Positions 4,552 to 36,404 of a stretch of DNA of 36,451 nucleotides are shown here, piece after piece. Within the stretch, counting starts at the first letter, position 1, and each line of letters starts with the position of its first letter. Position numbers and translations under genes: made by a program. The notes under the pieces were generated by a model. The model saw only the letters and a list, made by a program, of their open reading frames with translations, did no database searches and was not told where the DNA came from. Source of the DNA: a virus; IMG/VR virus record IMGVR_UViG_3300022198_000808, positions 1 through 36,451 of that record; one strand, given 5' to 3'.

Positions 4552-4666
4552 AAATCAAATAGAGCAACTGCGCGATGCAAAACAAACGAGTAACGATATA
4601 CCCCACAATCTATCGCACACAGGAGGCGGTAGTAACATCGTTAGATACGGTTCTAACGAGGATTAA
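4289..4666 (+). CDS. DUF3310-family protein (125 aa)
   Basis: Residues 24-95 match the DUF3310 pattern: VNHPEHYKTGG (28-38), a middle helix around ILFCEMNSFKYRMRAGKKP (55-73) and DLKKAQWYENQIEQL (80-94). Proteins of this family are common in phages and are often annotated as nucleotide-kinase-like, but the activity is not established. The first ~23 residues (Ser/Lys/Gln-rich) overlap the coiled-coil region of the HTH gene in another frame, so a later start is possible; the codon at 4289 is the only ATG before the domain. Its last 92 nt overlap the start of the primase-helicase, making one stretch in which three frames are used in turn. Confidence 0.85.
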   Translation: MNKLTQSKEQSKSSKESSQNSRKEYDAVNHPEHYKTGGKEVFQMMMDIWGTEGYILFCEMNSFKYRMRAGKKPGQPMEQDLKKAQWYENQIEQLRDAKQTSNDIPHNLSHTGGGSNIVRYGSNED

Positions 4667-10434: not shown

Positions 10435-10458
10435 TCGCTCTTCGGAGTGGGGGCTTTT
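10430..10458 (+). terminator. Intrinsic terminator of the rightward operon
   Basis: AGCCCTCGCTC (10430-10440) pairs with GAGTGGGGGCT (10445-10455) in an 11-bp stem with two G-U pairs and a very stable UUCG loop. TTTTACTTTTT follows. The U-tract overlaps the stop codon of the converging holin gene. On the opposite strand there is no U-tract, so it should stop only rightward transcripts. Confidence 0.85.
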
Positions 10459-10894: not shown

Positions 10895-11357
10895 CGTAAT
10901 CGATATATGTGATTGTTACTTCTTGTCCTCCTTCAATTGCAGCCGCAATCTTCGGATAGATGTCAGTATACGCTGCTGAAGAGCGACCGATAAATCCATC
11001 AGGCTTCTTGATGTTGCTTTCCTGAGTCTCCCCAACGAGAAGGCAACCAGCAGTGTGCTCATCAGTGTTGCCACAATGAATAAGTATGTACTCAAAATTA
11101 GGAATGTCCCTAACCCATAGCATACCCTTGTGAATGTCCTTGAAACGCTCCGCATATTTCTCGTGGAATCCCCCAACTGTTCGTAGCGTGACTCGATACG
11201 TTCCAGCGGGAACTCTAGTTTCTGAATAAACCTTCTCGTCCCTTTGCTCATCCTCCAATGTATAACAAAGGAACTTGCGGTCACCGTTTGTGATGTCAAA
11301 CAGAATGCCAGAAGTGCTGTCCTTCTGGCTGCTGAATCTCAGTACTTCTAGTTTCAT
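10887..11357 (-). CDS. DUF5675 protein, candidate cell-wall lytic enzyme (156 aa)
   Basis: The sequence matches the DUF5675 pattern: VPAGTYRVTL (49-58), FEYILIHCGN (88-97) and HTAGCLLVG (101-109). The combination of a 'P-x-G-x-Y' strand, an IH-x-G element (H94) and a later 'T-x-G-C' (C105) is close to the active-site layout of YkuD-type L,D-transpeptidases. A peptidoglycan-acting cysteine enzyme is therefore plausible; this is inference, not an established activity. There is no signal peptide or membrane helix, so it would need the holin to reach its substrate. It starts in an ATGA overlap with the giant ejection gene and overlaps the holin start by 8 nt. No other endolysin candidate is visible in the window. 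Confidence 0.75.
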   Translation of the reverse strand: MKLEVLRFSSQKDSTSGILFDITNGDRKFLCYTLEDEQRDEKVYSETRVPAGTYRVTLRTVGGFHEKYAERFKDIHKGMLWVRDIPNFEYILIHCGNTDEHTAGCLLVGETQESNIKKPDGFIGRSSAAYTDIYPKIAAAIEGGQEVTITYIDYDG

Positions 11358-17300: not shown

Positions 17301-20300
17301 TCATAAAACTCATAGGCCGGGATGTCCAACCTCAAAGCCACCTCGTATCCGTCTGGGATTTGCTTGTTTACATCGATGATGCCGCGAGCAATTTGATTTG
17401 ACTTCAGTGCAGCGGCAATGTCAAGGATGGATGGCACGTCAGGTACGGCAACCATGGGTGAGATTGGCTGCTCTCTACGAACAATCTCGATGTAATCACC
17501 TTGACCAATCTCATTAAAGTAGTATCTCCTTGCGGCCTCAACTACAGGAGCTACGCGCTTCTGACGCTGGTCTTCCGGAAGCTTAATCTCCGTCTCTCTT
17601 GCTGAAAGCTCTGCTTCGGTGAAGCCTGATTTAGCAAAGAAAGATTCAGTGCCAACGTCTTGTGTAAGAGACTTGATGACCGCCTGTGCCTTGCCGTTAG
17701 ACAGCCGTTCTGCATACTCATATGCTTCCATATAGTCTGTCATCCTCACGCCTTCTCCAACCTTGCCCTCTCCCCTTACGAAGAACACAACATCTGGTTG
17801 GTCTTTGAGTGGCGAGTCGGCGTCGTCCCAACCTTCTGGGGCAAACTCAGGGTTGAAGTCCAACCTAGCCACCGGCTTCCACCCGTTGCTAACGTACATG
17901 GCCTCCAGCTTCGTCGCAAAAGCATCGTAAAACTTGCCGCCGTTTCTCGCTCTGATGGTTTGTAGTGGGCCACTAATAGCGACCAACTCAGAGTCCGGGT
18001 TCTTAAACAACCCGCCCATGTATCCGTCAGCCTTGAGGTATGCACCGCCCATCCCGTCCTTCATGATGAACAGCTTACCCCCGTCATCGAGAATTTTCTG
18101 CGCGTCCTCTGCGGTCATGGCGTCCACCTGAAGGAACAGCTTCTTTTTCAGCTCACGCATCCTGTCGGTAGCCTCCGTCATGGCCGCTGCCCACATGACT
18201 GCGTCAGTAGTTTCCTCTACGTCTCTGTTTCTAGCATAAACACCTTGAGCTTTTGGGGTAAGGTCTTCAAGCTGGATTGCCATCGCATTATATCCAGCCC
18301 TAATCAGTGCCTCTCTGAGGTCTGTAGTACCCGTCACGGCCTCTCCTTGCTCAAGCTGCCCCGTAACCTTTTGCAATGCAGTAACGAGGTCTTGAATTCT
18401 TGGGTCGGTATCTGTCATGTCGACGTCGATACCCATGGCATTCAGCGAATCCTTTACGTGCTTCTTGAATGCGTTAACCAACCCCCTCTTCACACTGACC
18501 TCGACGTTAGCTGTATCTCCAGTCATGTCAGCGAGCAACTCCACCAAGAACTCCTCGGCTGCAAGTGGGTTTTCTCTAATTGCCTTCAATGGGTTTAGCG
18601 TACCCTCGCTGTAGGCTCTAGTGAAGTTGATGTACTTCGTTCTAATGTCCCCAGTCAAGCCTCTAAACAAGCTTTCAGCCAGCTGTTGAACGGCGGTTGG
18701 GCCAATGGCTTCTAGAATCAAGTCGTGATAAGCCTCGTGAAAGCCGGTGTTCTCCATAATCAATGGAGCAAACAAGTGAATCTCACCTTTCTTGGCCCAC
18801 ATGCCACGGCCAAGCTGGTCTTTCGGCACACCCACTGCATCTGCATAAGAGTCAATGGTCTTGTGAATGGTGACGCCTACGAAGTTGCCAGTCTTTGCCA
18901 GTGCCTTTGCTACGGTGACAGCGTTCTTCATGGCACGCTTCATCGTCTCTCCAGACTTGAATACACCTCGCTCAGAAATACCTGACACGGTGTCCATCGT
19001 TGTCTGATTGATAGCGTCAAGTACGGCGTCTGCATTTTCTCCAGTGACAGTGACGGAGTCTACGTCGCCTTGGAAGATTTCTCCGTAACCGTTATATCGC
19101 TTGTCAATTTTTGACAAACCACGAGTGATTCTACCGAACTCACTATTGATGTCGATACTATAATCGAGACCCAGTTCATTCTCAAGCTTTGCTCGTTCGT
19201 CAATCAGGGCTGAGACCTGCTCCTTCAAAGCCTTGCGGCTGTCTGCGTCTTGGGTTCTAGCGTACTCAATGCCAAGCTTTGCAATTCTAGACTGGAGACC
19301 CTCAAGCTTTGCGAACATTTCTGGGTTTGTCTCAGCCAGATTCTTGTAGAAGTTTACCCTGCCGAGCTTCTTGTCCCACGCCCTCTGAATCGTGTCTGAA
19401 ATTTTCTGACCAATCTCAGCCCTGAGTTCCTTAGTTGGGGCTGCATCATATTCCTTTGCCAGCTTAGTGATTTGAAGCGAGTCTCTGAGGCTAGGGATAG
19501 AAGAGAACCCCATGCTCCATGAGCGAATCTCATTGATTCCAGCACGGGTGCCGCGTACCGTGCCGGTAAATGCGCTTGCAGCACCAGCAACTCCACCACC
19601 AAGGGTTACGCCAGCATAGAACCCCTCCTTCGTTGCCTCCCAAAGTCCCTCGTATGAGAACTTCATGTTGGGGTTGGCGGCTGTACTCAAGTAGTACTGA
19701 CCAGCAGCGGTGACGCCCTCCGTGATACCCTCTTCTGCGGCACCTCCGAACACGGCCATCAACGCACCTCTAGCCCAAGACTCAGCTGCCTTCGTTCCAC
19801 CGTTTGCCAAGATGTTTGTTCCGATGGATGTAGCCACAAATGCAGGTGCGCCCTCCAAGAAGCCCATGGCGGAAGTGTATCCAGCCTTTTCCAACCCGTT
19901 CATTTGCTGGAACCAGTCCTCGTCACGAACTGCGTTATAGCTAGTGCCCATACCCATGAACGTGGTGGCAGCAAGAGCACCCCTGTTTTGAGCCCTTCCA
20001 GCCGCAGCCATAACGCGGGCAGAGACAGTCGTCTTTTGAGCACCTCCGAGATAACCGCCAGTAGCTCTGTACAGCCTACTGAACTTGTTCACTTCCTTAA
20101 ATGCCTTGCCAGCTTCGATAATTTTTCTGGCCTCGGCAACTCTTTCGGCACCAGCAAGCCCCCTGAGAGAAGACAGATTAGCACCTCTAGCTGCCCTGCC
20201 TCTCGAAGCGACACCAGCAACAAGGGCAGCTCCCATCATGGGAGCAGATTCACCGAACATTCTTAGCCCGTCGTCGACATACCTTTCGAGGGAATCGAAG

Positions 20301-21400
20301 TTTACTGGCATGAGAGGGCTTGCGTTTGCAATCTGCCCCATCATATCATCAGTACGCTCAGACCAAAGCTTCAGCGAAAATGGCAAACGCTCTGAAGCCT
20401 CTTGAGCCATCTTGTCGCTTTCTTCAGCAGCACTGAAAGCCCAGTTTGAAAACCAGTTGTCTTCACCAAACACAGCCACAGCCGCATCACCCATGATTTT
20501 ATTCATGCCTGACATCGACTCGTGCCAAGCTCTCGCGGCAGTCAACCCCGCCCCCGAACTCTCGGCATCCTTCTTGAGGAATTCGTAACCGCCAATGTAT
20601 GTGTCGTTGTTGAAGTCAAGGGCGAGATTGTGCTCGTCCCACATGTACCGCTCAAACTTGCTGAGTTCTTCTGGGTTATTCCTGATGTCCTCTGGGATAA
20701 GCTGTCTCATGCTGGGCCCCATGTCCATAGCAACTTGCCCTCCAACACTTTGAACCGCTTCACTGACTCTTTCTGCGAGCGTATATTTCTGTTCCTGAAC
20801 ATAGTCTCCAGTCACCTCGTCGATGCCGGCCATGTTCCTGAAGACGTTCTCGTTGACACCAGCAAGCAAGTATCTGTTGACTTCGAAGTCTGGGTCTTCT
20901 TGAACCAGCAAGTAATCAACGAGGTTTGACTTTGCTTCATACCTCTCGTTCTCTGTCGTAGCCAACTTGTATGCGTCAAGCAGCTCTGCGTTAACCTCAT
21001 CTACTCCGCCCTCACGGATGAGCAAGTCTTCGTATCTATCGACGCTAAATTTGTCACGCAAGATTTGCGTGTATGCGTTGTCGAAGTTTTCAGCCGTCTG
21101 GTTTAGGATGTCCGCGACGTGGTCTGGCACGTACACGTTGGGTCTGATAGGCGTGTAGCCCTCATGAATCCTGCTTCTTATACCCGAACCCGAAGGTGTA
21201 ATGCCTTGTTCTCCACCCAGATTTGTACTCGCACTTGAATCCAACGAATCCACCTCCGAAGTGGGCTGAGACGGTAATGCTCCTTCGGGCTGGTCTTTTT
21301 TTTTTAATCCGTAGAAGTCCTTAATGATGGCATTGATTTCCGTCATTGAGGCTCCACGCTCCCGCGCAGCATCAATAAGTGCTTTGAGTTCTGGATTCAT
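11354..21400 (-). CDS. Giant polyvalent ejection/internal virion protein with zincin motif (3348 aa)
   Basis: At 10 kb this is over a quarter of the window. It resembles the very large multidomain 'polyvalent' proteins packaged in virions and injected with DNA. Visible parts: a Ser-rich linker (35-75) with an A10 tract in its gene; Gly/Ala-rich helices near 390-620, including AAEEGITEGVTAAGQYYL; a zinc-metallopeptidase motif HEAYH (H888, E889, H892) with candidate third ligands E949/E950/E954; a region about 1100-1210 (GGAYLKADGYMGG through PDVVFFVRG) that could be acetyltransferase-like; a polyvalent-type block WIQVGMNPFRHSWFYD near 1470-1485; long charged helices about 2050-2450; and a VILSHTVGDVVVASHA region near 2700 followed by hydrophobic helices. 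It probably forms part of a channel and delivers enzymatic domains to the cell. The start is 12 nt after the upstream stop. Confidence 0.85.
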   Translation of the reverse strand: MNPELKALIDAARERGASMTEINAIIKDFYGLKKKDQPEGALPSQPTSEVDSLDSSASTNLGGEQGITPSGSGIRSRIHEGYTPIRPNVYVPDHVADILNQTAENFDNAYTQILRDKFSVDRYEDLLIREGGVDEVNAELLDAYKLATTENERYEAKSNLVDYLLVQEDPDFEVNRYLLAGVNENVFRNMAGIDEVTGDYVQEQKYTLAERVSEAVQSVGGQVAMDMGPSMRQLIPEDIRNNPEELSKFERYMWDEHNLALDFNNDTYIGGYEFLKKDAESSGAGLTAARAWHESMSGMNKIMGDAAVAVFGEDNWFSNWAFSAAEESDKMAQEASERLPFSLKLWSERTDDMMGQIANASPLMPVNFDSLERYVDDGLRMFGESAPMMGAALVAGVASRGRAARGANLSSLRGLAGAERVAEARKIIEAGKAFKEVNKFSRLYRATGGYLGGAQKTTVSARVMAAAGRAQNRGALAATTFMGMGTSYNAVRDEDWFQQMNGLEKAGYTSAMGFLEGAPAFVATSIGTNILANGGTKAAESWARGALMAVFGGAAEEGITEGVTAAGQYYLSTAANPNMKFSYEGLWEATKEGFYAGVTLGGGVAGAASAFTGTVRGTRAGINEIRSWSMGFSSIPSLRDSLQITKLAKEYDAAPTKELRAEIGQKISDTIQRAWDKKLGRVNFYKNLAETNPEMFAKLEGLQSRIAKLGIEYARTQDADSRKALKEQVSALIDERAKLENELGLDYSIDINSEFGRITRGLSKIDKRYNGYGEIFQGDVDSVTVTGENADAVLDAINQTTMDTVSGISERGVFKSGETMKRAMKNAVTVAKALAKTGNFVGVTIHKTIDSYADAVGVPKDQLGRGMWAKKGEIHLFAPLIMENTGFHEAYHDLILEAIGPTAVQQLAESLFRGLTGDIRTKYINFTRAYSEGTLNPLKAIRENPLAAEEFLVELLADMTGDTANVEVSVKRGLVNAFKKHVKDSLNAMGIDVDMTDTDPRIQDLVTALQKVTGQLEQGEAVTGTTDLREALIRAGYNAMAIQLEDLTPKAQGVYARNRDVEETTDAVMWAAAMTEATDRMRELKKKLFLQVDAMTAEDAQKILDDGGKLFIMKDGMGGAYLKADGYMGGLFKNPDSELVAISGPLQTIRARNGGKFYDAFATKLEAMYVSNGWKPVARLDFNPEFAPEGWDDADSPLKDQPDVVFFVRGEGKVGEGVRMTDYMEAYEYAERLSNGKAQAVIKSLTQDVGTESFFAKSGFTEAELSARETEIKLPEDQRQKRVAPVVEAARRYYFNEIGQGDYIEIVRREQPISPMVAVPDVPSILDIAAALKSNQIARGIIDVNKQIPDGYEVALRLDIPAYEFYDIWVVTAHEGRGQAIAYGQTGLITDVEFVSAAKGAFNIAVGESPEGKIDPKTGKPRKFAKSTIARMHGKWKNHDSESLRERAVEIMASEEYNMDDVAEGKIDGWIQVGMNPFRHSWFYDKRDGNPIVNADEVIQIGALVLAKGAVKALPSDERFAMTRPDGSVMKFQKSVPGETATDTSKMFSNKAQIFGRFENKYAENDKDFKKLMEGIVVHNVDMDELLQGRGFITSSPDNMMVGQLYFDGELIFEGGGGMFYPVRTGNVWAVAQEKEAKEIADKLNELRRKSPDGKAYFVLVSGTQEKLFSNTGALRATEIILRKLVEQGVMQESVFNKLLIDSFKQAYPKKQPIPMTGTRAEIVERILSHMSNVTTSTFGKRKYLTDRLFVNLGNALVDNDAARQSIGEMLGHDGNVGKKQGGSVTKRIVSQMLTERLLQGTMPGQVYAAVEIDSDVTFGIEEGESVFPAAIYQVDENGNKKPPKMHLFSERPMAEKVYVTERGWGREAFVEKFHPKYTGKININGNLVDSRKAADAAWTALLGLRNQAYGVARLAPKSQSVVDYEAKAQDNLLRIVSQMIDAKYPTPKVIRDRRKKNPVVGIEDVGQTELFSYTYVKAEVIKTLMESGFTKDGAESLYKRAVAYKEGRVQGKREGMKIAMKNAAETRKISTKAKNLKKALEQLKDKSNTFNQFLSAALELIDERMKENAKTPFTRSQVMALIKYVRQAHKTSAKKASENGLDAMQDFIDKISVIFDQRDAKAELQKYLDGIRHAQGLQQRIKRMAKTRGRGAAPKSVASYARVANGLAAINPALLPQNELADFVNTLMQTISSMSKSKAVFDEEVEAYVGVAFPKTRASILMNKLSSYRAMEELGRQALFMNRAAIRAEKNGTTIEEEYNKIVKNYERSRLSSSRRAILNFIDDNPTIQHPDTGETIVLDETNPAHIDIISQILADQAALKEELQKDAIIYDVLIPRIVANIEKLLEDTQIAEILGIYTEEDLDLARLTERLQKLKRHHIINLDYRLDDYIVNDSVYGIGYMHSLVKGVIDMPAEISRLRKNKGLKSRSRVLLGPLDTVNSYLSNLIPTDRISFAKLRNAIGLGALTTSFAKADFIHSQIVELIEAEIDRITEEGGSVKGRVDRAIAQIYSMARQLPEFEGERGGAEASWYLELRNAMRRTIDYYNEQKSFDPSEREEFEDAFNYLFGVDETLPELMSRIENERGDVVQLVQFVADIHTTLMPQFKNYVERYLGKELVVEENYTAFEVIPETGVRDVDDMLKLRMSLSDQIASSSLSNSKKVAGSSFERNPRSLKGNNRIGLDFLSINERTIRDNVILSHTVGDVVVASHALNSDAMKELIPDAKVRNEYERKVRLYVQQDTAKTPPVFQPTFNRFLGVPTPKYINPINLLRNAVIVKAFGSFGIQTLKQSTVLMSVMFQTKNPIQAIPYLLQTVAEMAAFSLNTLAREDSKMALDNGRYKLLQNSPVFQRDYESGNIDPYTGGMNLDQGKLSKLIDSLTNISLKNLKGTDKVAAVASWFTFYGDALISEGIVESYDQINWDYEAANPNKTALSYADMMVNKDQAASTPREAADLYQNEKGVKNMINYMAQNILLPFSRFAVNKKRSISSDAMRMWYGDTEAKKEGGVAMLGHAAELTLFAYIGKVMIPSIAAIFMDDDEEELPKDNMWREIATQVLTDAQPLPPFGVFDSQIKGLMNRYLWYPMDVMREGDFNLGDDDGYERWTRLGKGAQMYYEGAPKDPFQGFTRGLGPYGDFIDDARTIIANVGKSNNKVVTSSGMEYYVRPEDKDAMMLHYYLKMFLAVGQVAGLGSKEIDILVREMDDLPRDRRLSNEEALAAYETIAQKYGAKLEAGEGKERITDIVGELSNPFDKIRATNSFSSSVKPFVAEKHMETAYPEEHRKYMREVRKLPSQLKNARDYYAYLRGKKQDMSSEEFARLKSFIDTYFSIVKPAFYTEGRYIESIEE

Positions 21401-21412
21401 TCTTTATCCTTC

Positions 21413-23278
21413 TTAGTTGCCGTAAGCAGTGGAGTCCTGAAACATCAGCTGTCCGTTACCGATGTATGGGTATCTGCCGTTTTCTGCCTCCGCTAAGATA
21501 CGGGTTTTAGCAGCAGTCTGGTCTCCCGGACGAAGGCTATCAACCCAGTCCATTACTTCGGCTGCATCGATTTCATTGAGCGCAACGGCACCAGCCATGG
21601 CTTGAGCGTAAGCACTAGCCAACTCAATTGCTTCGTCTGTAGGTGCATTGCTATGCATCTTTATCATAGCGTCCTCTGCATCAATCAAGAACTGAGCCCC
21701 TCCCCTCTTGCTCTTTGATGGTGGGGCAACCTGATTAATAGTAGTAAGAACTTCCTTAAACACTTCTGGATTGGACTCCTGCATCACGGTGAAGTTCATG
21801 ATTGGCGTTCCTTCAATACCGAGGATTGCTTGGTCAAGAATTCCCGGCCCAGTATTCAAATCAAAGCCAATGAGCTTTCCTGTAGAGGGGTCGTGAATCA
21901 AGTTCTTTACTTCAACCTTAATATCTCCAGACGTAAGCTGAGTAACCATCTGGTCTTCGATGGGCTTACCATTAGCGTCTGTCGGCTTAGGGAGAGCATT
22001 ACCGCTGATGTTGAATCTGTAAGACCTTCCCGGCACGCTAGCCTTCACCTTTGGGTATGGGTCTTTTGTTGGGCCTATCTTATCTCCAACTTGAGTAATG
22101 ATTGGCTCCATAAAGGAATCAATCGGCGTGTACTCCATGGGTGGCTCTTCTGGGTCTGGAATCTCGCTGAGAATTTGCTTTCTCAACTGAGCAGTTTCAT
22201 CGCTAACCACGATAAGCTGTCTTGCTCTTCGCGCTGTGGCCTCTGCCCACCCACTAACAGCCTTTCTTTTCTGAATCATCTCAGGCATTCCGACCCGATT
22301 CAACTCCTCGTCGGTGACGTCAAATACCCACTTTCCCTCCTCGTTAATGTTTCCCGAAGTAAGAGACTTGCCAGCATTAACGCCAGTAGGATACTCTGTA
22401 TCGAACAGTTCTGCTTCTGTGTAAAAGGCTTGAGCTTCAGCGAAGTCTCTTTCAGTTAGTTCAGTCTTACCCGGCACACGGATATTCTTGTACCCCCAAG
22501 CTTGCATGGCTTCTAGCAATTCAGGCCCACGTGTGGTAAGCCTGTTATTGATTTCATCGTTGATGTCAGAGAAGATAGCTGCCTCGTCTACCTCGCCTGT
22601 CGCATAACCCAGTTTTCGAACTTGATAAGTCTCTTGCTTTTGACTCAACAACGTCTCATAAATGTCTTGACCCACGGTCTCAGGAACGTACTCTGTTCCC
22701 TGCCACTTCATCTGCGGAACGTACACGTCGTTCATGTCCGCAATATTTGACGTCTTCCAGTCTACATATTGTCCATTGACCGAAACTTCAAGCATTCCTG
22801 TCGCTTCATTCCATCTGTAGTCAGCAGTGTTATACTGTTCGAAATCAGCGAGCGTTTCTTCTGTCGAACCAGACAGGTTTTTGATTGTGCCGTTAGCAAT
22901 GCCTAATCTGGTCTGTCCATCCAGTGCGCTCTTTGCTGATGAGATGTTCTTAAACTGAATAAACTCTCCCTTGAGCTGTTGATACCTAGCGATGTCGTCT
23001 GGATTGCCAGACTGGTATGCTTTTGTCGCCGCCTCCTGATACCTGTCAAGAAGAGTCTGGGCACCTACTCTGTACTTCTCACCAACGCCAGCAGGGACAG
23101 ACTCCTCAAGAGCCTTGGTAAATCCCATGGTTTGGTTGAGCTGGTTCTGCCTAACCCTACGGTCGTTCTGGATTAATTGCGCCGTATTAGTGATGTCTTC
23201 ACTAATCTGCCGTCCCATCTCGCCGAAGCTTACTGGAGCCCCGACAAATCCGGTTTTAAATCTAGTTCCTTCAGCCAT
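21413..23278 (-). CDS. Internal virion/ejection protein (621 aa)
   Basis: No named family is recognised. The first 130 residues are helical (ISEDITNTAQLIQNDRRVRQ and similar) and the rest mixes helices with Gly/Pro-rich beta segments; Gln/Glu/Ala-rich helices recur. It lies between a short coiled-coil ejection protein and the giant polyvalent protein, in the place that T7-like and Bacteroidota podoviruses use for internal core proteins. The start overlaps the upstream gene's end by 8 nt. No enzymatic motif is visible. Role as an ejection protein is inferred from position and composition. Confidence 0.7.
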   Translation of the reverse strand: MAEGTRFKTGFVGAPVSFGEMGRQISEDITNTAQLIQNDRRVRQNQLNQTMGFTKALEESVPAGVGEKYRVGAQTLLDRYQEAATKAYQSGNPDDIARYQQLKGEFIQFKNISSAKSALDGQTRLGIANGTIKNLSGSTEETLADFEQYNTADYRWNEATGMLEVSVNGQYVDWKTSNIADMNDVYVPQMKWQGTEYVPETVGQDIYETLLSQKQETYQVRKLGYATGEVDEAAIFSDINDEINNRLTTRGPELLEAMQAWGYKNIRVPGKTELTERDFAEAQAFYTEAELFDTEYPTGVNAGKSLTSGNINEEGKWVFDVTDEELNRVGMPEMIQKRKAVSGWAEATARRARQLIVVSDETAQLRKQILSEIPDPEEPPMEYTPIDSFMEPIITQVGDKIGPTKDPYPKVKASVPGRSYRFNISGNALPKPTDANGKPIEDQMVTQLTSGDIKVEVKNLIHDPSTGKLIGFDLNTGPGILDQAILGIEGTPIMNFTVMQESNPEVFKEVLTTINQVAPPSKSKRGGAQFLIDAEDAMIKMHSNAPTDEAIELASAYAQAMAGAVALNEIDAAEVMDWVDSLRPGDQTAAKTRILAEAENGRYPYIGNGQLMFQDSTAYGN

Positions 23279-24215
23279 TGTCGTCTGCCTTTTCGAATCT
23301 GTTTACGAGTGAGCGCACAAATTTATGAAGCGGTGACTTGCCTTTGTCGGCCTCCCTCTTCAGTCTTCGCGCGTCCTTTGGGGCGATTACATACTCGCCG
23401 CCTGTCAAGGCAATGTTCATGTCCTTGCCATCCTCATCGACAACGTACATTTCGTTCGTGTCGTGGTTGAACTCACCCGGTGTCTTCTGAACCTTACCGC
23501 CCTTCTCCATGCCAATGCCGATTGCTGTCTTGGCAATACCACCAACGGTATTGGTGATACCCGCTCCAATCTGCTGCATCGCCGCTGCCTTGGCTGCTTC
23601 AGCCTTAGCAACTGCATCGTAACCGTAATCGATGTCTCTGGTAGAGCGTGCCTCTCTTCTCACCACCTCCTGCTGTCTTGCATCTGCTAAATTTGTAAGA
23701 GCCTGAGTTTGAAGCTGCTGCTGAGTGAGAGCTTGCTCCTGCATCTGACGCTGTGCCTGCTCAGTAGCCTGCATGATAGAGCCCAATCCTCTAGAGCCAT
23801 ACTGCTGCGCCGCTGATGCTGTAGTAGCGAGAGAACGATTGATGTCTTGAGTTCTCATCTGAACCAACCTCTGGTCGTAGGCATTCTTTACAGCCATGTA
23901 ATACTCGGCTGGAGTTGAGAGAGATGGCTGTGAAGCTTTTAGTCTCTCAAGCTCTTGGTTAGATGTCATGATGTCCTGCTTGGCCTGACGGTTGGCTTTG
24001 ATTCCCTGAAAAACATCTACAATACCGCCCACAGCTTGAACAATACCACCTGTGGTAGCACTTGCCTTAGCTGCTGCTGAATTGTAGAGAGAGTCCTTTG
24101 TACCCGAAGCCTCTGTACCCACGCTTCTCGTGTCTGGAACGTTACCGAGTATCTGAGCGTCAGTCATCAGGGGGTCTGTTTTAGGGTCTCCAAGGGGTGA
24201 GTTGTATAAAGACAT
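23271..24215 (-). CDS. Short ejection/internal virion protein with C-terminal GGEYV motif (314 aa)
   Basis: Residues 45-230 are Ala/Gln-rich helices (for example QAQRQMQEQALTQQQLQTQA), typical of small internal virion proteins that line an ejection channel. Two Gly-rich hydrophobic stretches (GGIVQAVGGIVDVF and GAGITNTVGGIAKTAIGIG) could insert in membrane. The C-terminus carries PGEFNHDTNEMYVVDEDG and TGGEYVIAP (271-279), a pattern seen in structural proteins of crAss-like and other Bacteroidota phages. The first base of its ATG is the last base of the nozzle gene's stop, and its end overlaps the following gene by 8 nt. Confidence 0.72.
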   Translation of the reverse strand: MSLYNSPLGDPKTDPLMTDAQILGNVPDTRSVGTEASGTKDSLYNSAAAKASATTGGIVQAVGGIVDVFQGIKANRQAKQDIMTSNQELERLKASQPSLSTPAEYYMAVKNAYDQRLVQMRTQDINRSLATTASAAQQYGSRGLGSIMQATEQAQRQMQEQALTQQQLQTQALTNLADARQQEVVRREARSTRDIDYGYDAVAKAEAAKAAAMQQIGAGITNTVGGIAKTAIGIGMEKGGKVQKTPGEFNHDTNEMYVVDEDGKDMNIALTGGEYVIAPKDARRLKREADKGKSPLHKFVRSLVNRFEKADDNG

Positions 24216-27200
24216 CAGTTCTCTTGTTGTTCGTTATGAAGTGGCGATGGGGTAAACACCATGTTTACTGCGTACAGCTCGACATCAGCCGTATTCGTAT
24301 TAGTTAGTTTCACTTTTGAGTAGTAGTCCCTCATGTGGTCTCCGTTGATTGAGCTATGGGACACAGCAATAAGCGTGTCACCAACAGAGACTCCCGGCGT
24401 ATCGTTAAGCGTGATTGACGTTCTACTGTCAACCGAAGAGATGTGCCTAGCTGTCTCTGTTTCAGAGCTTTCCGAAAGTACGTTAACCCTGTCTCCAAGT
24501 CCAAACGGAAGGTTACTTATTCTTGACGTAAACGTCACCGTGTTTCCACTAACGCTAGCAACCTCTCCAAGCACCACTTTGTTAGACCCAGACGAATCGG
24601 TCGACGACCCAGAGGTGTCTTTTGGAATGACAGAGTACCGAAGCCCTTCCTTAACCTCATACTCCCCACTACCAATTGATGTGGATTGACTTGAGTTCGT
24701 GATGACCGCAGACCAGTTATCATCACCCTCCAAGCTAATAGCATTGTACACCTTTACCATGGATGGGTTGACCCTAGATATAATCGTAATACTTGAGTTG
24801 TATTGAGTGCCGTAGAAGTTATTGTTAGTGTTGTTGACGTTATGCCTGTACATCTGACCATTCTCAAACGAGAAGAAGCGATTATGAAGGTTCGCATACA
24901 TCTCTGGGTTGAATGAGTATAAGCTCATCCAGTATCCTTTGGTGGTGCTATACGCCACTGTATTACCATCGTCATCCAGCCCATCCGTAACGGATATATT
25001 TACCGACGTATCAGATAAAGTACCAAACTTAATTAGCGTATCTGGGAAGGAAATAGAACCGTCAACATTATTGATTAACCCAACTCCACGATACTTGCCA
25101 TCGGAAGTCAGGATGTCAATCTCAACATCAGAGGTACTAAGCCTACTACTTGGGTCAACGAATACCGAGCCACGCTCAGTGAGTTTATCGACGAACATGA
25201 TTGACCCCCCTAAGCTGTCCCATTGGGGAAGGTATGACACAGGTGTGATATTTGTATCACTCCATATAAGCGAGTCATTGTCCCAAGTCATCATATTGTT
25301 ACTACCATAAACCGGCTTCACCTTTCCGGATGGGTTTGACACCCTCGCATTGGTTGGTGGTTTCTGCACATCGCCCACCGTGTCACCATCAATAATGATG
25401 TCGTTCACATCTTGCGATTCTGTTGTAACTAGAATTTCGTCATTCTCTGGGTCGATACCACACGGAATCCTAGGGACGGAATCCCTGAGTAGCAACTCAG
25501 CAAACAAGCCCTCAAAGAATGAACTCATACTCTTGTCACTTATGGGTTCAATCCCATTACTTGAGAGGGCAAACACCTTACCAGCATCCATGTCGCAGAA
25601 ATACGTGACACCAAACCGCTCGACGACAGACTCCGGGTTTAGTCCGGGGCCGAATGAACCGGCAAAGTAGGTTTCATTACCTAGGACGTTGGTGCTGGTT
25701 ACAAGCATTCCATCCCCAGATGTTTCAATAAGCTGTCTTCCGATGGGGGTTGAGCTCACCTTTTTCTCCTGCATGGTAAGCATACCTTCGCCCTTGTCAA
25801 CCAAGAAGCAGATAGCCCCATACTTAGAGTTGTAGTCTTTGTATGGATAGAGTACAGGGTTGAATGAAGACAGGCTCAGGATTGAAGAGTCAGACGCAAA
25901 CGGAGCACTGTAAGTGACAGCCGTGTGTCTCCTGATTTCTTTTTGGTCTGGGGTCTCGATGAACGGCCTTCCAATGCTAGATGCTTTTGAATCAAAGAAA
26001 TCGCTAACCGACTCATCCTCTACCACCCACTTCCTGTACAGCTGGTTGTCTGGTATGGTGGGGTTGTAAAGGTAGGTTACACTGTTGTCTCCTGACGGGG
26101 TGAAATCAACTTGAGGATTGCTTAGTTGCTCTCTAATTCTCATGAATACATCACCCGTTGTTAAGGTAACGACTCCTTTGTGTATGCTATTGCTGCTACC
26201 AACGGTGGTTGATATTGATGCACTAACGAGGCCAGTAGCCGCTATGTCGGTTTGAGAGAACGAACTTCCATCAGAAATGCTGTACGCGAACTCTCCGCTT
26301 TCTAACGGTCTAATCCCAGCTACAAATACATTAGAGTTAGCCGTGATAATCTTGTCACCTAAGTACAGTCGATGTGCAGACTTGAAGGTGTTTGTTCCGG
26401 TTACGTTGATGCCGAAGATTGGAGAGACACTGTTAGACCTATCGCCAGCGTGAGTTCTTACTCCTCCCACCTCAATGACATCGTACTGCTTCTTCAGCTC
26501 ATAGTATATGCGAGACTCCTCAGTAGACTCCTTCTTTGGTGTACAGATTTCTACCAAGCAGTTCTGGCTAAACTTGTCTTTTCCAAGAAGAACATCAGCG
26601 CGAGAGAATCCGGGGATGTTGTTGTCTCTTACAGTAAGGAACCAGCCAGTACGTCTGTAGTTTGTTTCGTCATCCTCATCGCTAATATCGCTAAGCCTGA
26701 TTGGGTTTTGGTCGTCGTCGCTATAATACTTGTATGATGTGATGACAAACTCGTGAAGAGGTCTCTGGATGTTCCCGTCTGAGTCTTCGTATTGAAGCAC
26801 ACGCAACACATCACCCTCGGCAAATTGATACGACAGCTTAGCTCCTTTGAAATCTCGGTATGAGTTTGATTTCCCCTCAAGCCCCCTCATTGATATGAAG
26901 ATTTGACCGTTAGTCCCCTGTTCTAGTCCCTGAGTAATCGGTCTTGTCTTCGTGCCATCGTTTGAACGAATGTCTGTAAATGTTGTCTGCTTTCCGGTTG
27001 CTGCTTCGTTCACAACAACTTGCAGAATCTTATCATACGAAGTATTCTTCGAGTACACAGGAGCCCATTTCTTCGCCCATGTCGGCGGGTCGTGTAAGAT
27101 TCTCAAGTCTATCTCCGTTCTCCCGTTGTTGCCTTGTCGGTTTTCGCCAAAGTGCTTGACGTACTTCTCTTTTATAGGCTGAACACCTGACGGTCTGTTC

Positions 27201-29413
27201 CTGTCATCGTAGTATACGATACCGAAGTCATGGGTAGCACCAGCTTTGAAAGAGCTTACAGCTTCACCGTCTGTAGCTGAAAAGTCAACAGTTGAGCTTT
27301 GAAGCGTGTAGTTAGTCCAGTACGAGCGAATCGCCCCGTTATTAATGCTGTAGTCTCTCAGTCTGTATCCGCTTGCATTCTCCTGAGAGCTTATCACTGC
27401 ATTCACCTGAGAGCCTGAGTATATGTGGTATGCAGCAAGTCCAAGGCAACCTCCACGTTGCGCTTGCTGGTAGTCAGGATTGCTTATGTCAGATGCAGCG
27501 ACAAAATCATTTCCAGTAACCGTACCAGAATTTAATGTATGATACGGGGCAACAACAGTGTCTGCAGATAATTCGACACCAGTACAAACAGCCTTGCATG
27601 TAACTTTTTGAGCGGCTTCATTATACGATGCTACAAGCTTGAAGTTTCCCGTCCCTGACATCCAAGCAATAAGTCGGTCAGCCTCATTCGTATTTGGCTG
27701 AGAGGATTGAGCACCAGTCGTACCGGCCAACATAACAGTAGCTCCTAACAGCTGTCCATAATTTGTCGAGCTTGGGTTCAGTCCTACTGATGCTTGCGGG
27801 GCGTTATTATTAATCTCGTTGACCAGCACGGATGCGAACTCACTAACGGTAGCATAAGGAACCGTAGAGAACTGATGAACGAACTGGCAAGGAGAAGACA
27901 TTACTAAGTTTCCTAAAGCTTGCTGTTCACTTTCCGGGTCTAGAATGAAGAGAGCTTGACTATGAATCTCATCTCCATTCTCATCATATGTTGCAGCATT
28001 TACAGTTATACGGGTGTTAGATGCATTACTGTTAATGTCAGCAGCAAAACCAATCTTGTCACAACCAAGAGAGATGTCGAAAGAGCATACGCCTACAGCG
28101 TTAATACCCCCTATGGGGAATTCGCTAAGGTCAATGTCAAACGACACACCGTTTGTTGTTGCATCACCGAATCTGGCAGCAGTGTAGCTGTTATTTACAA
28201 GGAATCCCTTGGCTAAAGTACCTCCATAATAAGACCTAGCATTCTCCCAAAACTCATTTGAACCATTGCCTGAATAGACCACTGTCTCGTTCATCAGCTC
28301 GCTATCAACTACCTCAAAATCTACTTCCGCACCTGTCTGAAGGTTTGGGTGGTACACAGGATAGTTGTACACGTCCGTATTAGCAAGGTTGTCGAAACCT
28401 TCGATGTAGTTGCCGTAAATCAGCCTGCCGTTCGAGATAGCCTGTGCCATCGCTGCTCTGGGTACGGCATCGTATGGTTTGTTCGCTTCTTCGTTGGAGA
28501 TGTATGAGTACACCTTGTCGTTACGGAACACGAAAGACTGCTGAGCTTGCGTTGGGTCATTGTCAAGTTCGTGAATCTTCTGGAATGCTCCGTCATTATT
28601 GCGCCTAGCAAACACTCGAATCTTCTTTACTGGCCCATCCGAATTAGTCACGGTCAGTCTAAGTTCATTATTGTATGACTCCAAGTAGTCAATAGCTGCT
28701 GAGTTGAATGCAAGGTTTGTGCTGCTTACAGCTAAGCTTGAGTAAGCAGATATTGCACTCGCCTCTCCATCATCATACACGTATTGGTAGGCAAATTGAA
28801 AGCAGTTCTCCTTCAGGTGATTTGCTTTGACTGAGCTGTTGGTCTGAAACGTCCAAGTGATAACGTCCTGTGGTGGCTGCTTGCACACCGTCAAGTACTT
28901 GTTCTTCTGCTCGTCATTGCCTGAAGTCATCAGGTCGTTGTATCCTCCATACAGCAACCTCGTGGCGTTCACCTTCCTAGGTTCATTCCGATTGTCGGTG
29001 AAGTAAAGGAGGTGCTCCTGAAATTGATTGATGACAACATCACCCTTCACGAATCCATCGCGCTCGAAGTTGAGCACCGAATCCTCGTAAAGCTTTACGT
29101 AGTTGTCGTTGATTGAGTCGTACCGGTAGATACCGTGGTTCAGCTGAGAATTATACAGGAAGAAATAGATGCACTTACCAGCCTCACATGGAACAGCCCC
29201 AATAACCCTGTTGTCACCAGAGCTTGGTATAGCGTCCGATGAGGTGGCTGCTGACACTGCTGTGTTACCCTCAATATTCTTTACAATCCCTTGGTCACCA
29301 CCGTCTTCATGAGACACGCGAATGTTCAGCGCGTCTGTCATTTCAAACGGCTTAATTAACCTCTCGTCTTCATCCTTATTGAGGTATTGCGGTACAAGCT
29401 TATCTATAGCCAT
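24215..29413 (-). CDS. Tail nozzle/stabilisation protein (gp12/P22 gp10-like role) (1732 aa)
   Basis: This very long, beta-rich protein opens LVPQYLNKDEDERLIKPFEMTDALNIRV, then has short strands with Asn/Asp turns throughout. Segments such as YYDDRNRPSGVQ and HDPPTWAKKWAPVYSKN (middle) resemble the stabilisation or tail tubular B proteins of crAss-like and other Bacteroidota podoviruses, which form the beta-propeller nozzle below the adaptor. The position directly after the adaptor gene supports this. At 1732 residues it is about twice the T7 gp12 length, so extra domains (possibly receptor-facing) are likely in the second half. Late residues 1560-1732 contain 'GDRVNVLSESSE' and 'GDTLIAVSH'-type beta repeats. 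It has a 1-nt overlap at both ends. Confidence 0.78.
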   Translation of the reverse strand: MAIDKLVPQYLNKDEDERLIKPFEMTDALNIRVSHEDGGDQGIVKNIEGNTAVSAATSSDAIPSSGDNRVIGAVPCEAGKCIYFFLYNSQLNHGIYRYDSINDNYVKLYEDSVLNFERDGFVKGDVVINQFQEHLLYFTDNRNEPRKVNATRLLYGGYNDLMTSGNDEQKNKYLTVCKQPPQDVITWTFQTNSSVKANHLKENCFQFAYQYVYDDGEASAISAYSSLAVSSTNLAFNSAAIDYLESYNNELRLTVTNSDGPVKKIRVFARRNNDGAFQKIHELDNDPTQAQQSFVFRNDKVYSYISNEEANKPYDAVPRAAMAQAISNGRLIYGNYIEGFDNLANTDVYNYPVYHPNLQTGAEVDFEVVDSELMNETVVYSGNGSNEFWENARSYYGGTLAKGFLVNNSYTAARFGDATTNGVSFDIDLSEFPIGGINAVGVCSFDISLGCDKIGFAADINSNASNTRITVNAATYDENGDEIHSQALFILDPESEQQALGNLVMSSPCQFVHQFSTVPYATVSEFASVLVNEINNNAPQASVGLNPSSTNYGQLLGATVMLAGTTGAQSSQPNTNEADRLIAWMSGTGNFKLVASYNEAAQKVTCKAVCTGVELSADTVVAPYHTLNSGTVTGNDFVAASDISNPDYQQAQRGGCLGLAAYHIYSGSQVNAVISSQENASGYRLRDYSINNGAIRSYWTNYTLQSSTVDFSATDGEAVSSFKAGATHDFGIVYYDDRNRPSGVQPIKEKYVKHFGENRQGNNGRTEIDLRILHDPPTWAKKWAPVYSKNTSYDKILQVVVNEAATGKQTTFTDIRSNDGTKTRPITQGLEQGTNGQIFISMRGLEGKSNSYRDFKGAKLSYQFAEGDVLRVLQYEDSDGNIQRPLHEFVITSYKYYSDDDQNPIRLSDISDEDDETNYRRTGWFLTVRDNNIPGFSRADVLLGKDKFSQNCLVEICTPKKESTEESRIYYELKKQYDVIEVGGVRTHAGDRSNSVSPIFGINVTGTNTFKSAHRLYLGDKIITANSNVFVAGIRPLESGEFAYSISDGSSFSQTDIAATGLVSASISTTVGSSNSIHKGVVTLTTGDVFMRIREQLSNPQVDFTPSGDNSVTYLYNPTIPDNQLYRKWVVEDESVSDFFDSKASSIGRPFIETPDQKEIRRHTAVTYSAPFASDSSILSLSSFNPVLYPYKDYNSKYGAICFLVDKGEGMLTMQEKKVSSTPIGRQLIETSGDGMLVTSTNVLGNETYFAGSFGPGLNPESVVERFGVTYFCDMDAGKVFALSSNGIEPISDKSMSSFFEGLFAELLLRDSVPRIPCGIDPENDEILVTTESQDVNDIIIDGDTVGDVQKPPTNARVSNPSGKVKPVYGSNNMMTWDNDSLIWSDTNITPVSYLPQWDSLGGSIMFVDKLTERGSVFVDPSSRLSTSDVEIDILTSDGKYRGVGLINNVDGSISFPDTLIKFGTLSDTSVNISVTDGLDDDGNTVAYSTTKGYWMSLYSFNPEMYANLHNRFFSFENGQMYRHNVNNTNNNFYGTQYNSSITIISRVNPSMVKVYNAISLEGDDNWSAVITNSSQSTSIGSGEYEVKEGLRYSVIPKDTSGSSTDSSGSNKVVLGEVASVSGNTVTFTSRISNLPFGLGDRVNVLSESSETETARHISSVDSRTSITLNDTPGVSVGDTLIAVSHSSINGDHMRDYYSKVKLTNTNTADVELYAVNMVFTPSPLHNEQQEN

Positions 29414-30219
29414 TAGTACTTAGGAGATTGCTTGAAGTTCTTACGGATAGTCTTGAGAGCCTCTTCAGCACTGAATGCCTTCAGTCTGGCATTGGCCTTT
29501 CTCCTTTCGTTGTAGTATTCTTGTCTGGCTCTAGCCTTCTCACCCATAGGCACGCTTGACTTGCGTTCGATGAGCTTGTAGTAGATGTAGGAGCGAAGAG
29601 CCTCTTCAGCCTCCACCTGTACGGTGGGAGATACAGAGCGTGCCTCGTCAGCGATGTATTCAATGACAACCTCCGAGTGCTGAACGCCGGAGAGCTCGAT
29701 GCGATTCTGGTCGTGATTCAATCTGTACTCACCTTCGTAGTACCCACCACCCAGTCCGTAAATCTGACCGATGTTGTTTTGGTAGATGTAGTTGCTGAAC
29801 ACAACGTAATCGTCATCGCCGAAGACACCGCTGCTAGTGCCTCCAGTCTTAGCCTCTACTCTGTCATAGATGCCATCTCCATCTGAATCGATAAAGTTTC
29901 CAGCGGCATCGCTGTCATACTTCTGTGAGTAGTTGATGTTCTTGTTCTCTCCAAACACGTACACCAACCCATCGCTCTTGACCACACCAATCTTAACCAA
30001 GTCAACGTAGTCGTCAGGAAGAGTCACCGTGTCATTGCTGTTCACTGACAGCTTAACAGAGCGGACGCGCTTCAACATATCGAAACCCATCTCTCGGATT
30101 CCTCTGAGCGCAAAGTTCTTGATGACTACGTCTGAAGCATTGTTCACGTAGTCGTCAGAGTCGAGAGTCAACACGAAGTCATTGACGACTTGGTCTACTG
30201 TTACTAGGTTCCTTGCCAT
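29413..30219 (-). CDS. Head-tail adaptor / tail tubular protein A-like with EF-hand loop (268 aa)
   Basis: The N-terminal helices (TVDQVVNDFVLTL, then VVIKNFALRGIREMGFDML), the strand SVKLSVNSNDTVTLPDDYVDLVKIG and the C-terminal helices (EAEEALRSYIYYKLIERKSS) follow the layout of gp4/gp11-type adaptors that join portal to nozzle; the 'L-P-D-D-Y-x-D-x-x-x-x-G' segment is typical. A loop insertion at residues 111-122 reads DSDGDGIYDRVE, a perfect canonical EF-hand (D1, D3, D5, G6, D9, E12), so calcium binding is expected. The gene is joined to the nozzle gene by a 1-nt overlap and follows the preceding connector gene after 3 nt. Confidence 0.78.
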   Translation of the reverse strand: MARNLVTVDQVVNDFVLTLDSDDYVNNASDVVIKNFALRGIREMGFDMLKRVRSVKLSVNSNDTVTLPDDYVDLVKIGVVKSDGLVYVFGENKNINYSQKYDSDAAGNFIDSDGDGIYDRVEAKTGGTSSGVFGDDDYVVFSNYIYQNNIGQIYGLGGGYYEGEYRLNHDQNRIELSGVQHSEVVIEYIADEARSVSPTVQVEAEEALRSYIYYKLIERKSSVPMGEKARARQEYYNERRKANARLKAFSAEEALKTIRKNFKQSPKY

Positions 30220-30222
30220 CTA

Positions 30223-30960
30223 TTACCGCTTTTGAGATTGAGTTTCTGCGTACGTGTAGATGTTTGAGTCACGCAGACTAATTCCAATCAACCTAGCCAT
30301 CTCCTCCACAATCTCTGGGATGTAGTGTTCTGGCAACTCGAAGTCCACGCTCGTGCTGGCGTTGTAGGTTTCCTTGTTGTTGTTCGTAGTGAATCCGAAC
30401 TTGGGCATGGACGCGGTTCTTGCACCCGTAGTTGGGTTCAAGCCTTCAGGCTGCTTGTAGTAGCGCAACCTAATCCTTCTGATGCTTTGAGGGTATACCT
30501 CAATCTCGTCATCAAGAAATGCAACTGGTGAGGTTTCAGTTGGCTTGCTTAGGTTGCTGTTAAGAATGTACTCCAGCTTCTCCTCATCATACTCAACGGG
30601 TACTGGGATTGCTGTATTCGTTCCAAGCAAAAGAGAACCATCCGTCTTGACGTAGATGATTCTTGCCAAATCGTCGGGCTTCGCGAAGTGTGCGCCTTGC
30701 GTCCTAGTGATGACTGGAGACGTCTTTGAAAACGTCGAAAGGTCTTCTTGTAGTTGCTTAATAGCTGACTTGTCGCGACCGGGGTCAATGCCCCGCTTCT
30801 TCATTGCGTTGACGTTGGTCATGCGCTTGAACATCGCATTAAAGACGTTTGCTTGAGCAATGGGCGCGAAGGAGTTGAACTCTGTTGGAGTTACAAAACC
30901 TCGCTGGTCTTTGTTTGCAATATCCTTTAGTGCATTGTAAACCTCTCGAACACTTGCCAT
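30223..30960 (-). CDS. Connector/ring-like structural protein (245 aa)
   Basis: The sequence begins ASVREVYNALKDIANKDQRGFVTPTEFNSFAPIAQANVF, a motif ('G-F-x-T-P-x-x-F-N-x-x-x-x-x-A-Q') I associate with head-tail connector or ring proteins of Bacteroidota podoviruses and crAss-like phages. The middle has beta-rich segments (IIYVKTDGSLLL, IEVYPQSIRRIRLRYYKQP), and the C-terminus is helical (PEIVEEMARLIGISLRDSNIYTYAETQSQKR). I set the start at the ATG at 30960. A TTG in the same frame at 30990 would add ten residues but lies next to a terminator, whereas the ATG has GGAGA 10 nt upstream. Confidence 0.7.
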   Translation of the reverse strand: MASVREVYNALKDIANKDQRGFVTPTEFNSFAPIAQANVFNAMFKRMTNVNAMKKRGIDPGRDKSAIKQLQEDLSTFSKTSPVITRTQGAHFAKPDDLARIIYVKTDGSLLLGTNTAIPVPVEYDEEKLEYILNSNLSKPTETSPVAFLDDEIEVYPQSIRRIRLRYYKQPEGLNPTTGARTASMPKFGFTTNNNKETYNASTSVDFELPEHYIPEIVEEMARLIGISLRDSNIYTYAETQSQKR

Positions 30961-30987
30961 AGTTAGGGAATCTCCAGCAAATATACT

Positions 30988-31019
30988 CAAAAAGAAAGGG
31001 GGGCTTTGTTGCCCCCCTT
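30988..31019 (-). terminator. Intrinsic terminator inside the late operon
   Basis: On the leftward strand AAGGGGGGC and GCCCCCCTT form a perfect 9-bp stem (30996-31004 with 31011-31019) around a 6-nt loop, followed by TCTTTTT. It lies between the stop at 31045 and the connector start at 30960 and should reduce transcription into the tail genes. Confidence 0.88.
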
Positions 31020-34833: not shown

Positions 34834-35094
34834 TTACGCCCTAATTCCGTACTCTCCAGCCGCTACGGTGTAGGTATATTCCCCATCAGCTGTCAGATAT
34901 GTAAACGACATTCCGCCATCAGGAATAAGGATTGAATCGTAAGTGGCCTCCCATGTTCCGTCGCCGTTGTCAACGCACTCGTCGAGTGTGAGTTCGTTAA
35001 AGACAAATCCCATGTTGGGAAGCTCTGGTGTGCTCCACGTCTGCTCAAGCTCCTCTTGAGAGGACACGGTATATGTTCTACTATTCCGAATCAT
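34834..35094 (-). CDS. Small hypothetical protein in the head/tail operon (86 aa)
   Basis: Unrecognised, short and beta-rich (RTYTVSSQEELEQ, GTWEATYDSILIPDGGMSFTYLT, EYTYTVAAGEYGIRA). The alternating strands suggest a small beta-sandwich, possibly a decoration or tail accessory protein. Its start overlaps the stop of the RCC1-like protein (ATGA, 35091-35094), implying coupled expression and maybe interaction with it. No enzymatic residue pattern is visible. Confidence 0.6.
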   Translation of the reverse strand: MIRNSRTYTVSSQEELEQTWSTPELPNMGFVFNELTLDECVDNGDGTWEATYDSILIPDGGMSFTYLTADGEYTYTVAAGEYGIRA

Positions 35095-36404
35095 GCGATG
35101 ACAACTAAATCATATGGGCTGGAAGCGTTGCTAGTGGAGAGATACGGAACAGCAAGCGTCACGTCGTTAGGAATCGTGTTGGTGGAGTCCGCGTCATTCA
35201 ATGGCATCCCAATGTCTGTGTATATGCCTTGGTAAATGTTCAGGAATGAAGTTCGTTGCGTCCAATCACCAGAATTCAAAACACCGTGAATGTACCAGTT
35301 ACCATTCCTCTTGTATGTGAGGTTTGGAATCTGATAGTTGTTTGCGAACCTTATGTCCTCCCATCCAGTCTGACTGCCTATGCGTTTAAAGTATCCGCCG
35401 TTATCTTCAAACAGCTTAACTCCAGTATAGGAAACTCTTGCGGAGCCGTACAGCTCTCCGTCTTCGTTAATAGCAAATATCGTTGGGACTCCAGCGAACA
35501 CCTTCACCCAGTTGGTTGCTGGAGCAGAGTCGCCGTAAATAGTTGGCTGATATGGATACAGTTGGTCTGTTGCTGAGCCTGTTCCTTGACCACTTTCATT
35601 GGCCTCGCCCCAACAATACATCTTTCCATCTTGGGTTACGCACATGCTGCCACGAACCCCCATGGAAATGTTCACGACATCCTCGGCAAAATCATTTGAC
35701 GCATCTGCCTTAACCCTCGTCCAGTTGTAAGTAACGCCGCTAGCTAATCCAAGGCCAGTGACACCATAATTGTTGTACCCACAAGAATACAGGTATCTCT
35801 GTCGGTTAGCCGCATCGCCCTTGATTGCAAGGGACGAGTACGGATACTCCACTCCGTTACCAACAATGTCAATCCAATCTGTGTCAGTGCCGTACTGCAA
35901 CCACGTCTGGCTTGCTGTTGTCGTTGCTTGTCCAGACCCGGAGCTGTTAATCATGCTGTTTGCAGCACCACACCACCACAGCGTACCATTCGTCTTTATT
36001 GCCCAACAGCCATTGTTGAAAGGGGCAAACTTCGAGACGCCAGTAAGAGAAACATGAAACTCGTCAGCTGGTGCATTGGTGAAAGACCGCCCTAAGTAAG
36101 ACGTGTTGGTTCCACCAGCAGAGTACAGGTCTCCACCAGATGTCAGCGCGAACGCTCCGCCAAAACTAAACTTAAGGTCTACAAAGTCAGTCCTGCTCGA
36201 CAGCTGATACGCATGAATAGATGGCAGGTAATCATTTACCGAACGAACGTCAACAGGATATTGACCCCCAGAGATGCCGCCGTAGTACAGGAGTCCAGTT
36301 GTTGACGCGGGAACGGAAGCCCCTCCTCCAGATGGCGCATCGACGCCGCTAATGCTTTGAATACTCGCCATGTCTATTCCGCTATAGTATGAGATTTGTG
36401 GCAT
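35091..36404 (-). CDS. RCC1-like beta-propeller tail/receptor-binding protein (437 aa)
   Basis: After a short phage-type leader (IDMASIQSISGVDAPSGGG) the sequence has at least five RCC1-like repeats, each a strand with a small hydrophobic core, then 'D/N-G-x-L/M-Y-x-x-G'. They lie at about residues 82-98 (FALTSGGDLYSAGG), 132-150 (CWAIKTNGTLWWCG), 190-215 (SLAIKGDAANRQRYLYSCG), 251-277 (SMCVTQDGKMYCWGEANESGQG) and 309-322 (IFAINEDGELYGSAR). RCC1 repeats form a beta-propeller used for protein or surface binding, so a tail tip or receptor-binding role is likely. The start at 36404 has no Shine-Dalgarno sequence; an in-frame ATG at residue 12 is possible. Confidence 0.78.
   Translation of the reverse strand: MPQISYYSGIDMASIQSISGVDAPSGGGASVPASTTGLLYYGGISGGQYPVDVRSVNDYLPSIHAYQLSSRTDFVDLKFSFGGAFALTSGGDLYSAGGTNTSYLGRSFTNAPADEFHVSLTGVSKFAPFNNGCWAIKTNGTLWWCGAANSMINSSGSGQATTTASQTWLQYGTDTDWIDIVGNGVEYPYSSLAIKGDAANRQRYLYSCGYNNYGVTGLGLASGVTYNWTRVKADASNDFAEDVVNISMGVRGSMCVTQDGKMYCWGEANESGQGTGSATDQLYPYQPTIYGDSAPATNWVKVFAGVPTIFAINEDGELYGSARVSYTGVKLFEDNGGYFKRIGSQTGWEDIRFANNYQIPNLTYKRNGNWYIHGVLNSGDWTQRTSFLNIYQGIYTDIGMPLNDADSTNTIPNDVTLAVPYLSTSNASSPYDLVVIA

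Follow-up and report, generated by a model that had tools for sequence, protein, structure and literature searches.

Neither adaptor rings nor calcium loops of the Dx[DN]xDG type are new, and among phage proteins the lysin LysGH15 has an EF-hand-like calcium site, which lies in a lytic enzyme domain and not in a virion ring (passages of PMC4022735). Among the described ring proteins, ring protein 1 of crAss001 (gp43) shares with the protein studied here both the adaptor/ring fold and an adjoining muzzle gene. In the text of PMC10172136, the crAss001 ring proteins R1 and R2 form the interface to the fibre hubs, and rings and hubs are joined by disulfides, whereas our protein is free of cysteine; the word 'calcium' is absent from the main text of that paper. 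The adaptor gp11 of SU10 has the fold in common (Z 8.5 for 7z47_A), with a weak sequence match that remains below the Pfam cut-off. Sections 10 and 11 of PMC9509320 describe a dock domain of the SU10 adaptor that holds the long tail fibres and has radially protruding dock loops, and in the passages of that paper calcium occurs once, in the reference list. Cellulophaga phage phi38:1 (Pervagoviridae) encodes a homologous protein, gp96, in the same gene order and with 26% identity, but there the site of the calcium loop is occupied by a short D-x-N-G hairpin.

The Dx[DN]xDG loops of Rigden et al. (2011, PMC3123361) are defined, in the parts of that paper used here, by a six-residue motif with acidic ligands further along the chain, whatever the fold, as is the case in the present protein. 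The ion is bound by the side chains at positions 1, 3 and 5 and by a carbonyl past the motif, one or more acidic or amide residues further on complete the calcium site, and the motif occurs in many folds (PMC3123361). The terms 'phage' and 'viral' had no match in its main text. Among the matches listed from the open-access literature, with subscription papers outside the scope, no report of a calcium loop in a phage adaptor was found.

The window, i.e. the whole stretch of DNA analysed, is a virus record of 36,451 bases. An ORF at positions 29413 to 30219 on the minus strand encodes a 268-aa adaptor/ring protein, which matches phrog_13977 ('virion structural protein', E 3.4e-71) and has the corresponding predicted fold. 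The adjoining gene (24215 to 29413, minus strand) encodes a muzzle (nozzle-like) protein of 1732 aa, the probable downstream tail partner, with Pfam matches to crAss_MUZ (E 1.6e-14) and crAss_MUZ_C (E 1.8e-9) that both exceed the cut-off. The order of these two genes matches that of gp43 and gp44 in crAss001. A second adaptor-like candidate ring protein, of 255 aa, is encoded at 30223 to 30990 on the minus strand; it matches phrog_14543 (E 3.2e-38) and, under the cut-off of 27 bits, Pfam SU10_adaptor (E 7.5e-4, 20.4 bits). The named relatives are phages of the flavobacteria Cellulophaga, Maribacter and Flavobacterium from seawater and Baltic or brackish water, and the capsid protein has the same neighbours as the adaptor, at 32-33% identity among the matches listed. 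Cysteine is absent from the 268-aa protein and from a further 69 of the 92 distinct proteins compared below.

Several other genes of the window were also of interest. Three adjoining tail-region genes (11354 to 24215, minus strand) encode proteins of 3348, 621 and 314 aa, 4283 aa in total, with no cysteine at all, next to a muzzle protein with 15 cysteines. At a threshold of E 0.01 the largest of the three matched no Pfam family, and its PHROG match was weak (E 0.0015); the trio could be ejected cargo proteins. Inside the structural gene block, a 437-aa protein with RCC1-type repeats (35091 to 36404, minus strand) matched Pfam WD40_RLD (E 2.3e-17) and exceeded the cut-off of RCC1_2. A holin (PHROG match, E 7e-22) is encoded at 10457 to 10894 on the minus strand, while the plus strand carries a DnaB-like helicase with a BT4734-like N-terminal domain (4575 to 6371) and a ribonucleotide reductase of the B12-dependent type (8143 to 10047).

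The structure of the adaptor/ring protein was predicted with AlphaFold2, giving a pLDDT of 72 with 45 sequences and of 83.7 with 121 sequences, and the latter model was used. It has the helix bundle and beta-sandwich of an adaptor-type ring protein, in agreement with the identity originally proposed for it. In a Foldseek search against solved structures crAss001 ring protein 1 was ranked first (E 1.3e-7, and 2.7e-7 for a second entry of it) and SU10 third (E 1.4e-5). By Z-score, crAss001 ring protein 1 (PDB 7qog chain B, gp43; Z 11.5 over 195 residues at 3.6 A) was tied with the KHP30 adaptor (11.0), followed by GP4, Moo19, A4, B2, Pa223, VP1 and N4 (10.2 to 9.1), the SU10 entry already mentioned, and T7 (8.0). 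Sequence comparison was less informative. With hhalign there were no matches to gp43, gp40 or gp35 of crAss001, and the relation to these proteins is therefore based on predicted fold and gene order. A profile comparison with the second ring candidate of the window and an NCBIfam search were likewise without a match; in PDB sequence searches the profile had none, and those of the single protein were all weak and unrelated (best E 0.14). The window protein matched Pfam SU10_adaptor weakly, under the cut-off, and 35 of the 121 members matched this Pfam family with E-values no higher than 0.1, the best being 3.6e-4. Based on the model, the 268-aa protein is a ring protein that probably links the head of a crAss-like phage to its tail.

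The loop of interest comprises residues 111-122, DSDGDGIYDRVE (29854 to 29889, minus strand), and it was identified from its sequence, its conservation and its ordered coil in the model. The translation of the ORF confirms oxygen ligands at positions 1, 3, 5, 9 and 12, the last of these a Glu, and Gly at position 6, just as had been read from the DNA. The loop is part of a variable stretch inserted into the beta-sandwich domain (residues 92-163; 29731 to 29946, minus strand), delimited by homologue lengths and by the model, which places it between strands 86-88 and 164-168. Mean pLDDT is 94 for residues 101-110 and 92 for 111-120, and a bridge at 109 is followed in the model by coil at 110-119 and a strand at 120-122, so that a confidently ordered loop is predicted and not a buried strand. 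The prediction is poor for residues 141-146 and 148-157.

The six residues DSDGDG, together with D119 and E122 at 2 and 5 residues past the motif, make up a Dx[DN]xDG loop, and in residues and spacing the adaptor loop fits the calcium loops of PMC3123361, as far as these are described in the parts of that paper used. Among the 22 window ORFs taken as likely genes the motif is unique to the adaptor, where it occurs in a single copy. When the residues of the 268-aa protein were shuffled 200,000 times, DxDxDGxxDxx[DE] arose with a frequency of 1.05e-4, compared to 1.6e-3 for a relaxed form. These rates alone favour a non-chance motif in a suggestive but not decisive way, and conservation is the stronger evidence for the loop being real.

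The original prediction had called the loop a canonical EF-hand. The ligand positions and Gly 6 bear this out, but the remaining features do not. In the EF-hand consensus, position 8 is Ile, Leu or Val. Here it is Tyr, and among the 92 distinct homologues Tyr (34) and Phe (31) prevail over Asn and Leu (8 each). Position 12 is Asp in 85 of these proteins, Glu in 4, Asn in 2 and Ser in 1, the Glu of the window thus being a minority residue. The model contains no helix of at least 4 residues between positions 48 and 201 and consequently no helix-loop-helix. The window protein had no match to EF-hand Pfam families at E up to 1, and no such family was among the 17 matched by any of the 121 members at E up to 0.1. 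A canonical EF-hand was rejected on account of the missing flanking helices in the model, the Tyr at position 8 and the lack of profile matches in these searches. The bacterial TSP3 repeat (PF18884) was also rejected: it scored 14.9 bits against a cut-off of 25 (E 0.025), in one copy without a tandem, and was matched by 1 of the 121 members at E up to 0.1. Judged from residues and model together, the loop is classed as an EF-hand-like Dx[DN]xDG loop in a predicted beta context.

Conservation was first assessed in an IMG/VR scan with six search peptides, none of which touches the loop, and the best 80 of 146 relatives were kept. Although the scan was thus not keyed on the loop, Dx[DN]xDGxx[DE]xx[DENS] was retained in 71 of these 80 homologues and the stricter DxDxDGxx[DE]xx[DE] in 63. 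Across ORFs of at least 100 aa within up to 5 kb on either side of the 80 loci, all 71 matches to a similar pattern sit in the adaptor. Two scans pooled with the window gave 92 distinct proteins, in which the ligands were all acidic with Gly 6 in 69, were oxygen ligands with Gly 6 in 13 (including L058, which has a one-residue deletion in the loop) and were broken in 10; oxygen ligands and Gly 6 were thus retained by 82 of the 92. The scans favour the most similar sequences, and these frequencies therefore speak for close relatives and not for the entire group. Column variability was 0.43 bits at 111, 1.09 at 113, 0.5 at 115, 0.3 at 119 and 0.49 at 122, with 0.76 at Gly116. The ligand columns (0.3-1.1 bits) vary much less than the surrounding insert, with 1.5-3.0 bits at 102-110 and 2.0-3.2 bits at 125-135, although position 113 is close to the protein-wide median column (1.02 bits). 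In the 91 calcium-type rows, which were chosen for this very Gly, the codons of Gly116 are spread as 26, 22, 22 and 21: the DNA drifts and the residue is held. Taken together, the aligned homologues indicate that the loop is under selection where it is present.

Wider scans enlarged the set to 136 close and 42 distant rows. The close rows comprise 91 of the calcium type, 31 with a PLNI-type substitute, 8 with a short insert and 6 others, so that 45 of the 136 are without the motif. The PLNI-type loop, e.g. PLNIEDNFIDNREDDK in L062, is mostly of equal length, with its spacing mostly held. Among the 8 short-insert rows, 7 are without the loop segment and L246 has a shortened one, and the insert 92-163 as a whole varies in length across homologues and is in part absent. 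The calcium motif is absent from all 42 distant rows, kin of Cellulophaga phage phi38:1, Maribacter phage Panino and the Flavobacterium elemo phages, many of which have a short hairpin such as LYDVNGDIL. Homologues without the acidic ligands, which had originally been named as evidence against the proposal, thus do exist in part: most of the close homologues sampled conserve the ligands, while a minority of these and the distant ones do not. Since 45 of the close and all of the distant rows are without the motif, the loop appears dispensable, i.e. such a virion can evidently be built without it. The sole relative in the bacterial genome collection (L273:10001-10714), on a Sphingobacteriia MAG contig, is 33% identical and without the calcium loop, and its source is possibly a phage of Bacteroidota.

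The direction of change was considered with a quick tree, from which residues 92-150 were left out and for which three distant rows served to place the root. Rows of the PLNI type and most short rows nest within the calcium-type rows, which would fit repeated losses of the loop. By parsimony the calcium label changes 9 times on this tree, with 3 of the changes forced by starred branches; support is below 80 for 49 of the 132 inner branches, and the root branch is very long. Cysteine was present in 22 of the 31 PLNI-type rows (e.g. L055, L060 and L073) compared to 14 of the 91 calcium-type rows, mostly, in the former, at the positions that correspond to residues 210 and 217 of the window protein, both part of a helix in the model. 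Only 3 independent pairs on supported branches were available for this comparison (sign test, median p 1), and the idea that cysteine serves as a replacement staple in PLNI-type rows is a lead from the alignment. In a single case, L257, the insert has CGEC at the site of the calcium loop, possibly as a disulfide or another metal site replacing Ca2+.

Our preferred reading, which we consider reasonably probable, is that the loop of the ring protein binds Ca2+, clips the variable insert and stabilises the tail, without acting as an ejection trigger. The motif, its conservation, the ordered conformation in the model, the adaptor fold found by structure comparison and the muzzle gene next door are the observed part of this reading. 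The protein would probably belong to a dodecameric ring on the portal side of the tail. Each loop 111-122 would hold one Ca2+ by the side chains of D111, D113, D115 and D119 and/or E122 together with the carbonyl of residue 117, and the ion would pin the variable insert in the beta-sandwich. In SU10 the beta-sandwich domain is the one that docks the tail fibres, and in crAss001 it is turned towards the fibre hubs; from topology the insert may be the counterpart of the SU10 dock loop. It is from the fit of the motif, from the role of the dock domain in SU10 and from the interface between R1/R2 and the hubs in crAss001 that we infer a structural Ca2+ clip; binding of Ca2+, the ring itself, the outward-facing place of the insert at the fibre dock and the stabilising role are likewise inferred. 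In calcium-rich water the free virion would carry a filled site, and the loop would probably stiffen part of the tail as a structural clip. Several observations speak against this reading: a lone loop with no partner may bind weakly, many relatives manage without the motif, position 113 is conserved no better than a typical column, and R120 is kept even in broken loops. A stiffening of the portal-nozzle junction had originally been proposed. The muzzle gene does adjoin the adaptor gene, but the loop lies in the insert of the beta-sandwich, and its placement at the junction would be conjecture.

It is also conceivable, though rather unlikely in our estimation, that the loop is loaded at exit, i.e. 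that it is empty in the host cytoplasm, where free Ca2+ is low during virion assembly, is filled once lysis has brought the particle into calcium-rich water and only then locks the fibre dock or contacts within the ring. Adaptors assemble in the cytoplasm and remain outside the new host, and the large Ca2+ step experienced by the ring therefore comes at exit. The named relatives infect flavobacteria of marine or brackish water, and section 7 of PMC3123361 gives the roles of Dx[DN]xDG loops as structural or regulatory. Should the lone loop bind Ca2+ weakly, filling on exit from the host becomes the more interesting reading. The jump from cytoplasm to seawater might then serve as a one-way maturation, with loops empty and flexible at assembly and loading after lysis locking the fibre-docking surface, and with the clip replaced elsewhere by the PLNI-type loop, the CGEC of L257 or a shortened insert; we regard this extended version with the same reserve. 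Relatives without the loop exist, however, and a tight site might load early or slowly.

The loop might also have no metal at all, the acidic turn being a protein-protein contact or a salt-bridge cluster round R120 in a virion without Ca2+ at this site. We consider this unlikely, but part of the conservation is in its favour. R120 is invariant throughout the 92 distinct homologues, even in the 10 whose loops are broken, so that some of the conservation must arise from another cause than the ion. The broken loops also keep D119 in 8 and D122 in 9 cases, and the PLNI-type loops mostly hold the spacing. On the other hand, PMC3123361 gives Gly at position 6, combined with Asp or Asn at 3 and with Asp at 5, as the signature of calcium loops, and Gly 6 and Asp 5 are lost jointly in 10 of 10 broken loops, as would be expected if they served one ion.

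The adaptor ring of podoviruses stays outside the cell. The original suggestion that the loop senses a change in Ca2+ on cell entry, its loss at cell contact or entry opening the tail, is for this reason and owing to the dispensability of the loop most improbable, for although the loop belongs to a ring of the ejection conduit, the adaptor never enters the cell, the motif is missing from 45 of 136 close and 42 of 42 distant relatives, and the loop sits in a variable insert that is in part missing from 8 of the 136 close rows.

Adaptor rings keep the seal between head and tail and, in several short-tailed phages, the attachment of the fibres. If binding holds true, the structural Ca2+ clip would add the adaptor fold as a further context for Dx[DN]xDG loops. 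Rigden et al. sought series documenting such loops in other families with limited success (section 8 of PMC3123361). The present family has motif-bearing, substituted and shortened versions together, and provides such a series for the origin or decay of Dx[DN]xDG loops. A lineage-specific metal clip, if true, predicts that the stability of these virions is dependent on Ca2+.
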